A stretch of DNA of 64,000 nucleotides, taken from contig NZ_CP090370.1 of assembly GCF_021431965.1 (NCBI RefSeq), positions 2,604,001-2,668,000 of the forward strand, written 5' to 3'. The position numbers and the translations under genes are program-made. Below are positions 24,245-28,855 of the stretch, one piece after another (position 1 is the first letter of the stretch; each line of letters begins with the position of its first letter). Source of the stretch: Erythrobacter sp. SDW2 (GTDB lineage: Bacteria > Pseudomonadota > Alphaproteobacteria > Sphingomonadales > Sphingomonadaceae). The notes beneath the pieces are model-generated. The model did no database searches and was not told where the DNA came from. It worked only from the letters and a program-made list of their open reading frames with translations.

Positions 24245-24335
24245 TCGCGACTAATTGACAATAATGTAAGTAACGGCGATGGCCCGGCAGACAATCCGTC
24301 AGGCCATCGCCTCACAACCCTAAGGGAGAATGCCA

Positions 24336-24635
24336 ATGTCCGTTTCCGGTACCTACAACACCACCGTCAACAGCCCGATGGGTCCGCAGAGCGGCACTCT
24401 CACGGTCGAAGACAAGGGCGACGGCACCTTCAGCGGCAAGATGGCCGGTGCCATGGGCGCAATGGATATCGACGGCGGCACGGTGGACGGCAACACGATC
24501 AAGTGGTCGATGAACATGACCGTGCCGATGCCGATGAAGCTCGATTGCGAAGCCACCATTGACGGCGACACGCTGACCGGTGCTGTCAACGCCGGCGCCT
24601 TCGGCTCGATGCCGCTGAGCGGAACGCGCGCCTAA
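24336..24635 (+). CDS. Small beta-rich protein of unknown function
   Basis: A 99-residue protein. The ATG at 24336 is chosen because GGAG is about 7 bases upstream; the ATG two codons earlier sits too close to it. The sequence alternates short strands and Gly turns (GTYNTTVNSPMGPQSGTLTVEDKGDG, then two further similar hairpins). It suggests a small beta-barrel or sandwich without signal peptide or catalytic motif. Similar stretches are familiar to me as unannotated domains in many proteobacteria, sometimes at the end of hydrolases, but no function is known to me. It follows the M16 peptidase by 91 bp and ends before a strong terminator. Confidence 0.75.
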   Translation: MSVSGTYNTTVNSPMGPQSGTLTVEDKGDGTFSGKMAGAMGAMDIDGGTVDGNTIKWSMNMTVPMPMKLDCEATIDGDTLTGAVNAGAFGSMPLSGTRA

Positions 24636-24658
24636 GATTTTCGCCCGTCCGGGCAAAC

Positions 24659-24697
24659 AAAAGGCCCCGCTGCAGCGATGCGGCGGGGCTTTTTTTG
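24659..24697 (+). terminator. Intrinsic terminator after the M16/beta-protein unit
   Basis: The stem GCCCCGC / GCGGGGC, extended by A-T pairs, is followed by a run of seven T on the plus strand. It closes the acylase-M16-beta protein unit and marks the edge of the lower-G+C patch that follows. Confidence 0.88.
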
Positions 24698-24716
24698 TGC
24701 TCACTGTGTCTCCAAC

Positions 24717-25316
24717 CTACTTTAGCGAGGCGGTATCCACCAACGTCAGGAAATCACCCACATTCTTGTCGTAGTAGTGGAGTCGTGGAGCGTCGAAGGT
24801 GATCATATAGAGCTTATCCGCAATGATCGACGCCCTCGCTTGCCCCTTCCGAGTAAGACCATCATTATCGGCGTACTCGTAGGTGAACGCCACGCCATCA
24901 TGGCCGAGAAACTTCGTCGGCTCGATAGAAGTCACCTGGAACGCGACCACGTTCTTGTAGGGCCGATATGTGCCCTCGAGGAGTTCAGGAATCTCGATTA
25001 GAAGTGTCTCTGCGGTAAATTTAGGCAGAGGTTCTCGCTTCTTGTTTCTTTCTTTGACCAAGGGTTTTCCGGGAAGGATTCCGCCATAGAAAGTGATATC
25101 GTTCAACTGCGGACCATCAAGCGTCCAGGTTTCGACATTCTTGCCGATGGACCCGCTGAGACGGTTCCACTTTCTGCTTGGCACAACAGTCAAGCCTGAC
25201 TTCGCAACAGCGACAGCCTGCCCTTCCTCAATTAATTTGTGCGCGAGCAGTGGCTGAGGCAGCGCGACCGCAAGCGCAGCCGAAACCAGCAGCGAACGGG
25301 CTAACGATCTCTTCAT
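24717..25316 (-). CDS. Secreted hypothetical protein in the low-G+C patch
   Basis: A 199-residue protein with a clear signal peptide (KRSLARSLLVSAALAVALP through LLAHK). The mature part is beta-rich and Lys/Tyr-rich, with no motif I recognise. It contains RKGQARASIIADKLYMITFDAPRLHYY, like proteins of the periplasm that sense or bind. Base composition is unlike the flanks: 27 of 60 bases in 25021-25080 are G or C, against 40 of 60 in 28021-28080. It is the last gene of a three-gene minus-strand group with the broken M48 protease (4 bp gap) and the secreted protein at 26517. The three were probably acquired together. The function is unknown. Confidence 0.72.
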   Translation of the reverse strand: MKRSLARSLLVSAALAVALPQPLLAHKLIEEGQAVAVAKSGLTVVPSRKWNRLSGSIGKNVETWTLDGPQLNDITFYGGILPGKPLVKERNKKREPLPKFTAETLLIEIPELLEGTYRPYKNVVAFQVTSIEPTKFLGHDGVAFTYEYADNDGLTRKGQARASIIADKLYMITFDAPRLHYYDKNVGDFLTLVDTASLK

Positions 25317-25320
25317 CTGC

Positions 25321-26511
25321 TTACTCTCCTGTTGGCAGCATTAGCCTGATCATTTTCGTGTCCGATGCCTCAGGCTCTAACTCCAAATAGCGTGTCAGCG
25401 CTGCTTGCCCTTCGCTTGTACGCCCAGTCTTAATAAGCGAAAGTCCAAGCCCCCGGTATGCACCAGCAAGCTCAGGGTCCTGCTCGATCGCTCCACTGTA
25501 GAAGTTGATGGCATTGACGAGATCACGCTGGGCACCACGGGCACGATAGAGTTCGCCTCGTGCGAATAAGAGCGGCGCGGTCCAACCATGCTCAGCGAGG
25601 TTGCCTAGGATGTATTCCGTAGCCCCGAAATCGTTGAGTTTAACCTGATCATCGAGAAATATTGGCAGCCACGGTGCAAGCATCTCGCGATAGCGTGCTT
25701 CTCCGTCGTCCCGAAGGTACCCTTCAGGGTCTGCAAACAAGGATAGGTAAGTGGCGCGCTCCGCGTTTGGCGGATGCGATGCAGCGAAAGCTATTGCCGT
25801 GAAATTCGGCTTCTTGAGACCGCGGACACTTGCAGAGGCTTCAGCTTCTCCGATGACATTCAGCCATACGCTGGAGGCGGCCTGCGGTCGAAGACCACTT
25901 TTGTTCAGGTAGCTGACCCCAAGGAGGTCGGCTTCGCGTTCCTGATCTCTACCATACCGGTAAATCTCACCGTAAACTGCAACTTCAAGTTCACGATAGC
26001 TTTGACGAACATCACGACTAGGCGCCATCGCAGCTAGAACAGAAGCCCACGCCAGAATATCCGTTCCGGTGCGCTTCTTCTTAAACTCATAAAGAGAATG
26101 CCTTTTCTCGAAGTGACCGAATTCATGCCCAAGAATTGCGCCAAGTTCTGCTTAGTTTCGGGTTCGAAGAAGCAATCCACTAAAGACTCGCATTGTCCCG
26201 TTGGGAGTCATGGAAGCATTGAAGATCGGCTCACGTATCAAGTAAATTCTAACCGAGCTGCAACGATCATCGCCGACCGTTTTGCACAGGACGCTTCGAA
26301 CGTACTCGGTTAGGGCCTCATCTCTGATAAGCATCGGTGACGCAGTGAGGACACGCTCTCGCTCGTCATCGCGACGCCATAAACCGACCTCATCAACACC
26401 GATGGGCTGATACACACCTTCATATGTTGGCGGCAGAGGCGGCTCTTCCGCCAAAACAGAAGAACTGAAAATACCAATCGCCGCAGCCGCGAGAAGGAGC
26501 TTTCGAACCAT
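25321..26511 (-). pseudogene. M48 family metalloprotease with TPR tail, interrupted by an in-frame TAA
   Basis: The frame is open from the ATG at 26511 to 26155, has a TAA at 26152-26154, then continues in the same frame to the stop at 25321. The first 119 residues have a signal peptide (VRKLLLAAAAIGIFSSSVLA) and end RVFSGLLLRTRN. Directly after the TAA come AELGAILGHEFGHFEKRH (the HExxH zinc motif) and later QEREADLLG (third zinc ligand). A TPR-like tail (GAYRGLGLSLIKTGRTSEGQ) follows. Family members usually read E at the stop position, so one G-to-T change explains it. No start codon lies between the TAA and the zinc motif, so an active protease needs readthrough or suppression. A sequencing error is the main alternative. 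Confidence 0.85.
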
Positions 26512-26516
26512 GGGCT

Positions 26517-27272
26517 CTATTTTTCCTCCTCGATATCGCTGCCGGGAAACTCTTCAAGCAACTGGCGGACGCGCTTCTGAGATCCTTCTTGATCGCGAAC
26601 GTCACCGCCCATTTGCCCATCAGCATTAAGCCACAAGATGTCGCCGGTTTTGAGGTCAACTAATCCGGCATAGCCCTTGTGCTCGCCCGAAGTCACAGCG
26701 ATACCCGCTCCAAGGATTGCCACAACCTGCAGAATCTTACGCCCCGTAGATCCGTACATATCCTTGTTGTAAATGAAGAGTGCATAGTCAGCCTGATCTG
26801 CACCAGGCAGATCGACAACGCTAGGTCCGAGCGACCAATCGAACACGCCTTCCTTGTTTTCGCGTTTCTTAGTTGGAAGCCGATTACCGATGAAGAACTG
26901 ATACTCTATGACGGCGTCGGCAATAGCAGCAAAGAGGGCCATATGCTCTTCAACGATTACGGCATCTTCCCCATAAACTTCCGGAGCCACAATGATCTCG
27001 TTCCCAAGCTTGGTCTGATACTCCAGCAGTGACGCTTCGATGTTCGCCTTGGCTTGCTCGGTCCATTCGGCATTGGGTTCGAATATCCCTCCAGTCGATT
27101 GTGCGCCTACGCTCACCTTTGGCCGGAATACGAGAATCTTCTTTCCGCTGTTCTCCTCAAGCACAAAGCCGTCGCGAGTAGCAGTGCGCTCTTGCGCCGT
27201 GACTGCCTGCGAATCGAAGGTAATAAAGAGAATCAGCGCCGTGAAAATCAAGCGCACAACACGAGCCATCAT
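26517..27272 (-). CDS. Secreted hypothetical protein, first gene of the low-G+C trio
   Basis: About 251 residues from the ATG at 27272, preceded by an A/G-rich site AAAGGGGGGG. In-frame sequence continues to a TTG at 27302 but adds nothing coherent. The signal peptide is MARVVRLIFTALILFITF followed by AVTAQ. The mature protein has ILVFRPKVSVGAQSTGG, then a helical stretch, then a hydrophobic GAGIAVTSGEHKGYAGLVDLKTGDILW. The overall plan (nucleotide-free alpha/beta with a final exposed strand) recalls CsgG/DUF799-type periplasmic lipoproteins, but there is no lipobox and this is a weak comparison. It ends 5 bp before the M48 gene. The function is unknown; it is probably co-expressed with the protease. 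Confidence 0.7.
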   Translation of the reverse strand: MMARVVRLIFTALILFITFDSQAVTAQERTATRDGFVLEENSGKKILVFRPKVSVGAQSTGGIFEPNAEWTEQAKANIEASLLEYQTKLGNEIIVAPEVYGEDAVIVEEHMALFAAIADAVIEYQFFIGNRLPTKKRENKEGVFDWSLGPSVVDLPGADQADYALFIYNKDMYGSTGRKILQVVAILGAGIAVTSGEHKGYAGLVDLKTGDILWLNADGQMGGDVRDQEGSQKRVRQLLEEFPGSDIEEEK

Positions 27273-27361
27273 GAATCGCCCCCCCTTTCTTAGCGAAGGC
27301 AATCTAGCTTAGTAAAAGCGTCGGGCAACAACGAACTTATTGTGTCCAGCGAAAAGCGAAC

Positions 27362-28855
27362 CTACCCCAGCTTGCCCTTCAAAATCTCGTTCACCACACC
27401 CGGATTGCCCTTGCCCTGCAGCGCTTTCATCGTCTGGCCGACGAAGAAGCCGAACAGCTTGTCCTTGCCGCTGCGGTATTCCTCGACCTTGTCGGCATTG
27501 GTGGCGAGGACTTCGTCGATCACTGCCTCGATCGCGCCGGTGTCGCTGAGCTGCTTGAGGCCTTCGGTCTCGGCAATTTCGGCCGGGGCGCGGCCGGTCT
27601 TGAGGACGATCTCGAAGATTTCCTTGGCCTGGCCGCCGCTGATCTCTCCCTTGTCCTGCATGGCGAGGATCGCGGCCTGGGCCTCGGCGGTGGCGTGAGC
27701 GGCATTGCCTTCATCGCCGAGCGCCTTGATCACCCCCGGCGCGACGGAGAGCGCCCAGTTGGCGACCGGTGTGGCAACCGCCGCTTCGGCCTTGCCGATG
27801 GCGCTGGCGGTGGCAGCCAGCAGCGTCTCGAAGCGGGCGTAGGTCTCGACCTCGGCGGTCAGTTCGCGGGCATTGTATTCGCTCAGCCCTAGTTCGCCGA
27901 CATAGCGCGCGCGCTTGGCATCGGGCAGCTCGGGCAGCGACGCACGGCATTCCTCGAGGAAGCTGTCGTCCAGTTCCAGCGGCAGCAGGTCCGGATCGGG
28001 GAAATAGCGATAATCATGCGCGTCTTCCTTGCTGCGCATGGTCCGCGTGGTGCCGGTGCCGGGATCGAACAGGCGGGTTTCCTGCTCCACTGCGCCGCCG
28101 CTTTCGATCAGGTCGACCTGGCGGTTGGCCTCGTATTCGATCACCTGCATGACGAAGCGGACCGAGTTGACGTTCTTGGTCTCGGTGCGGGTGCCGAATT
28201 CCTCGCCCGGGCGGCGGACCGAAACGTTGACGTCGGCCCGCATCGAGCCTTCTTCCATGTTGCCGTCGCACGAACCGACATAGCGCAGAATCGAACGCAG
28301 CTTGCGCACGTAAGCCCCGGCCTCGGCGGGCGAGCGCATGTCCGGCTTGGACACGATCTCCATCAAAGCCACGCCGCAGCGGTTCAAATCGACATAGGAC
28401 ATGGTCGGGTGCTGGTCGTGCATCAGCTTGCCCGCGTCCTGCTCGACATGGATGCGCTCGATGCCGATGACCTTGTCTTCGGGAATGCCGGCCTTTTCGT
28501 CGGCGTCGATGGTCAGCGCGCCCTCGCCCACCAGCGGGTGGTAGAGCTGGCTGATCTGGTAGCCCTGCGGCAAATCGGCATAGAAGTAGTTCTTGCGGTC
28601 GAACCGGCTCCACCGGTTGATCTGCGCCTCGATCGCCATGCCGGTGCGGACCGCCTGGCGGATGCACTCGCGGTTGGGCACGGGCAGCATCCCGGGCATG
28701 GCCGCATCGACGAGGCTGACTTGCGTATTGGGCTCCGCGCCAAAGGCCGTCGCCGCGCCGCTGAACAGCTTGGCGCTGGAGGTGACCTGGGCATGGACTT
28801 CGAGGCCGATCACGACCTCCCATTCGCCGGTTGCGCCCTGGATGCGGTAGCTCAC
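27362..28855 (-). CDS. gatB: Asp-tRNA(Asn)/Glu-tRNA(Gln) amidotransferase subunit B
   Basis: A 497-residue GatB, the kinase/tRNA-binding subunit that activates the misacylated tRNA before ammonia transfer. The N-terminal cradle domain has [35 protein letters not shown] and [15 protein letters not shown], all standard. The C-terminal YqeY-like tail domain ends [25 protein letters not shown]. The start is a GTG at 28855 with AGGAG nine bases upstream. It is the last gene of a minus-strand group with gatC, gatA and a flippase, the flippase lying between gatA and gatB. The organism therefore probably makes Gln-tRNA (and perhaps Asn-tRNA) by the indirect route. Confidence 0.97.

Follow-up and report, generated by a model that had tools for sequence, protein, structure and literature searches.

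The locus and the interrupted gene

The window is a stretch of 64,000 nucleotides from Erythrobacter sp. SDW2. It contains an M48/TPR gene that occupies the middle of three closely packed genes, with gaps of 5 and 4 nt (Table 1). In the assembly, this gene of 396 codons presents a premature TAA at codon 120. It shares its frame with the ATG at 26511 and the terminal stop, which is likewise TAA. Apart from it, the whole 396-codon frame shows no further stop or frameshift. A random open reading frame is not an issue for a conserved frame of this length with a single stop.

Table 1. Features of the operon and its flanks (positions in the window).
Feature	Positions	Strand	Remarks
Premature TAA, codon 120	26152..26154	-	Column is Glu in 83/83 relatives
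M48 gene, 5' part	26155..26511	-	119 codons, with an apparent signal peptide and the initial half of the protease domain; catalytic residues absent
M48 gene, 3' part	25321..26151	-	HEFGH, EREAD, HPX4R plug motif, TPR tail; frame open as far as the terminal stop (25321-25323)
First possible re-initiation ORF past the premature stop	25321..26028	-	235 aa; without HExxH
Upstream operon gene	26517..27272	-	251 aa; secreted-looking, intact; no Pfam/NCBIfam family; 5 nt separate its stop from the M48 start
Downstream operon gene	24717..25316	-	199 aa; intact; no Pfam/NCBIfam family; start 4 nt past the M48 stop
gatB	27362..28855	-	Conserved upstream neighbor of the operon
101-aa gene	24330..24635	+	Together with the adjoining M16 peptidase gene, defines the far flank in each of the four congeners

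The premature TAA lies nine residues upstream of the first histidine of HEFGH. No ATG, GTG, or TTG is found in frame between them. The first in-frame start past the stop is the ATG at 26028, and it lies downstream of HEFGH. An active protease is therefore impossible without readthrough. The sequence-only reading had described an in-frame TAA right before the zinc motif of an M48 protease. It placed HEFGH, EREAD, and the TPR tail after the stop in one frame, and it saw no start between the stop and HEFGH. We found all of this to be correct. The signal peptide of the M48 product was judged by eye only.

Reading across the premature stop, the product matches PF01435 (Pfam M48) with 88.1 bits, and the 3' part alone reaches 62.7 bits (cut-off 20.3). 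Pfam also gives weak TPR matches in the 3' part. The motifs HEFGH, EREAD, and HPPNAER share one frame, all downstream of the stop, and correspond to the HExxH, the zinc glutamate, and the HPX4R plug. The plug and zinc-ligand motifs were defined for BepA (PMC7950410). Against the BepA equivalog model NF052400, the 3' part scored 26.4 bits (cut-off 570); the two halves were scored apart, and a score of 570 would hardly be within reach of the entire protein. The aligned sequence of the E. coli BepA structure has glutamate at the column of the premature stop. The predicted product of the gene is a periplasmic M48 metalloprotease that ends in a TPR tail and is laid out like BepA. For the 251-aa and 199-aa partner proteins, Pfam gave nothing reliable. 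Both partner genes are open frames with full-length relatives, in agreement with the earlier description of the flanking low-G+C genes as intact.

Conservation of the protease and of the operon

The species genome collection yielded 56 relatives, and the family search covered 397 genomes. Of these 397, 90 had a match, the window genome included. In the alignment of fetched relatives, all 83 sequences with a residue at the stop column have glutamate, so the previous description of this residue as usually Glu was an understatement. None of the 89 other matched genomes presents a stop at this codon, and none of the relatives in the family search has a split M48 gene. The other stops whose position was checked in relatives are located at the C-terminal end of the protein. 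One copy (G059) carries a TGA whose position in the protein was not placed.

The remainder of the gene is well preserved. All 33 near-invariant columns downstream of the stop are kept. In the close set, the window gene departs at 3 of 96 columns, and the other members average 1.8. In the tree, the window copy is sister to the copy of genome G118 (support 100/99). Its tip branch measures 0.30, compared with 0.36 in this sister, which indicates no acceleration. Per-gene trees, which left out G118, show the window tip as the longest in both M48 halves and in both partner genes alike, and the 3' half is not singled out.

The three genes are collinear on one strand in 80 of 80 loci where all of them were found. 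In G118 and several distant relatives, gatB is the immediate upstream neighbor of the trio; in many others, one to three kilobases separate gatB from the trio downstream of it. In the locus of G118, the closest relative, a DDE transposase (DUF772, DDE_Tnp_1; L061:138-1220) follows the M48 gene in place of the third operon gene. Some relatives of the 199-aa gene are apparently broken: the one at L071:2733-3277 has a frame change, and that of L039 has an in-frame stop close to its end. One locus (L006, RPSH01000003.1) is titled 'Bacillus sp. 2B10'. It carries the Sphingomonadales operon, groups with Sphingomonas panni in the tree, and is probably misnamed.

The GC3 of the trio (about 0.5-0.6) is far below that of its neighbors (0.80-0.86), despite a place after gatB that is common to distant relatives. 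The trio shows the same GC3 in the window genome (G000) and in G118, whereas gatB has 0.86-0.90. The low G+C suggested a foreign island. We rejected it: distant relatives also have the trio next to gatB, on its downstream side, and the G118 copy shares both this location and the low G+C. Re-acquisition of the trio at this place by a common ancestor, rather than retention, is possible. A viral or proviral origin was also discarded, as viral contigs hold no relative. Likewise, a backup paralogue was considered and rejected. Only two distant M48 genes (25-30% identity) are present elsewhere in the genome.

In the four other genomes of the genus, the trio is missing between gatB and the 101-aa/M16 genes, which are in place. 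No copy was found elsewhere in these four congeners, one of which is a draft with 73% completeness. Other genes occupy the interval from gatB to the 101-aa gene in the three congeners whose interval was listed. Gene content varies among congeners in the stretch 24636-27361, from gatB to the 101-aa/M16 genes; G001 and G003, for instance, carry a TrmL-like methyltransferase there, judged by eye. The operon is conserved over the order yet patchy near the window genome, and we read it as dispensable and in the course of being lost. Given its absence from four congeners, the window would show an early step of the same loss. The sequence-only reading had recognized neither this conserved operon of three genes, to which the protease belongs, nor its ongoing loss in the clade.

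Origin of the stop codon

Three explanations had been offered from the sequence: a recent single-base pseudogene, a sequencing error, and readthrough of the stop. The best supported is the recent pseudogene. There is one lesion, and the operon is absent in four congeners. The conservation of the downstream columns, together with a tip branch no longer than that of G118, implies that the lesion is recent on the branch of the window. In a simulation, the open frame caps neutral divergence after the stop arose at roughly 3-11% per site; this is a weak limit, and the lower figure depends on an assumed indel rate. That no more decay is seen suits a very young lesion, but it would suit the lack of any lesion equally well.

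The main rival is a single-base sequencing or consensus error, with an intact gene in the living strain. We regard this rival as unlikely, although less so than the others. Only one substitution separates the assembly from an intact gene whose near-invariant residues are all present. Moreover, both operon partners are open, and the half past the stop does not stand out in its tip branch. However, the assembly is a single contig of 2.92 Mb with 99.97% completeness, and the assembled gene is altered by a substitution rather than by a homopolymer indel. As a control for broken genes, we compared 80 kb of a congener (G001) with the window. Among 43 matched syntenic ORFs, two were flagged: the first overlaps the antisense strand of a small gene, and the second is in a poorly defined stretch beside larger ORFs. 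There is no convincing second broken gene, and so no sign of poor consensus; the consensus of the assembly looks clean.

The stop could also be read through, by a suppressor tRNA or by programmed or leaky decoding, and the protease made conditionally. The downstream frame is intact and keeps the conserved residues. Low-level translation of pseudogenes is reported in bacteria. Nevertheless, the stop is present in no relative, so it is not a conserved signal. The gene's own terminator is also TAA, and this codon is recognized by both release factors, RF1 and RF2. The genome has three genes of the RF-1 family, and two have the size of RF1/RF2, so candidates for both factors are available to read the stop. 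No tRNA with a UUA anticodon was found among 42 tRNAs or by pattern search. The list of 42 is incomplete (it lacks the expected Ile-GAT, Ala-TGC, and Leu-CAA), and the pattern search complements it. Three matches to the suppressor pattern were discarded: the Lys (TTT) and Leu (TAG) tRNAs account for two of them, and ARAGORN does not recognize the third as a tRNA. The RNA downstream of the stop folds no better than shuffled sequences (z -0.56), so a stimulatory structure is missing too. Readthrough is thus very improbable. The narrower proposal, in which some condition raises suppression of the stop to a useful level and a periplasmic protease becomes conditional on translation fidelity, is even harder to credit. 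The conditional secreted protease of the sequence-only reading is not sustained.

A different possibility is that the two halves are separate functional products: an exported fragment of 119 amino acids and one of 235 from the ATG at 26028, which is available in frame. However, the second product would lack both HExxH and a signal peptide, and the gene is split in none of the relatives. The break also interrupts the M48 domain itself, 9 residues ahead of the first zinc histidine, in a stretch that aligns gap-free to BepA. Therefore, neither half would be a complete domain, and we consider two functional products highly unlikely.

We conclude that a nonsense mutation has probably made this gene a pseudogene very recently, within a dispensable operon (probability of about 0.7). 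Intact orthologues without the stop, as described above, are what is expected of a nonsense pseudogene. The M48 gene would have been functional until a recent nonsense substitution, the only one, inactivated it. At most, the cell would produce the exported fragment of 119 residues, which has no catalytic residue and is presumably degraded. This loss may be tolerated because the operon appears dispensable in the genus. We infer that the DNA of the living strain carries the stop and that the fragment is useless.

By itself, the case has little importance, as another very young pseudogene or a base error. It has a modest use as a snapshot of the loss of a conserved, uncharacterized Sphingomonadales operon (an unknown protein, an M48-TPR protease, and another unknown protein). 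It also advises caution: an isolated in-frame stop should not be taken for regulation.

Comparison with BepA and with young pseudogenes

The layout resembles BepA of E. coli (6AIT, 6SAR). Both have an M48 domain followed by TPR, with the HExxH, the zinc glutamate, and the HPX4R plug. BepA has a glutamate nine residues before HExxH, the site where the window gene has its stop. Compared with BepA, the TPR tail of the window protein is shorter. In addition, the window gene is broken and belongs to a Sphingomonadales operon with two unknown proteins.

The removal of young pseudogenes has been described in Salmonella (Kuo & Ochman 2010, PMC2916853). Like an ordinary young nonsense pseudogene in bacteria, the window gene has a single inactivating change, the rest is intact, and the gene is absent from sister genomes. 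By this comparison, it shows nothing distinctive.
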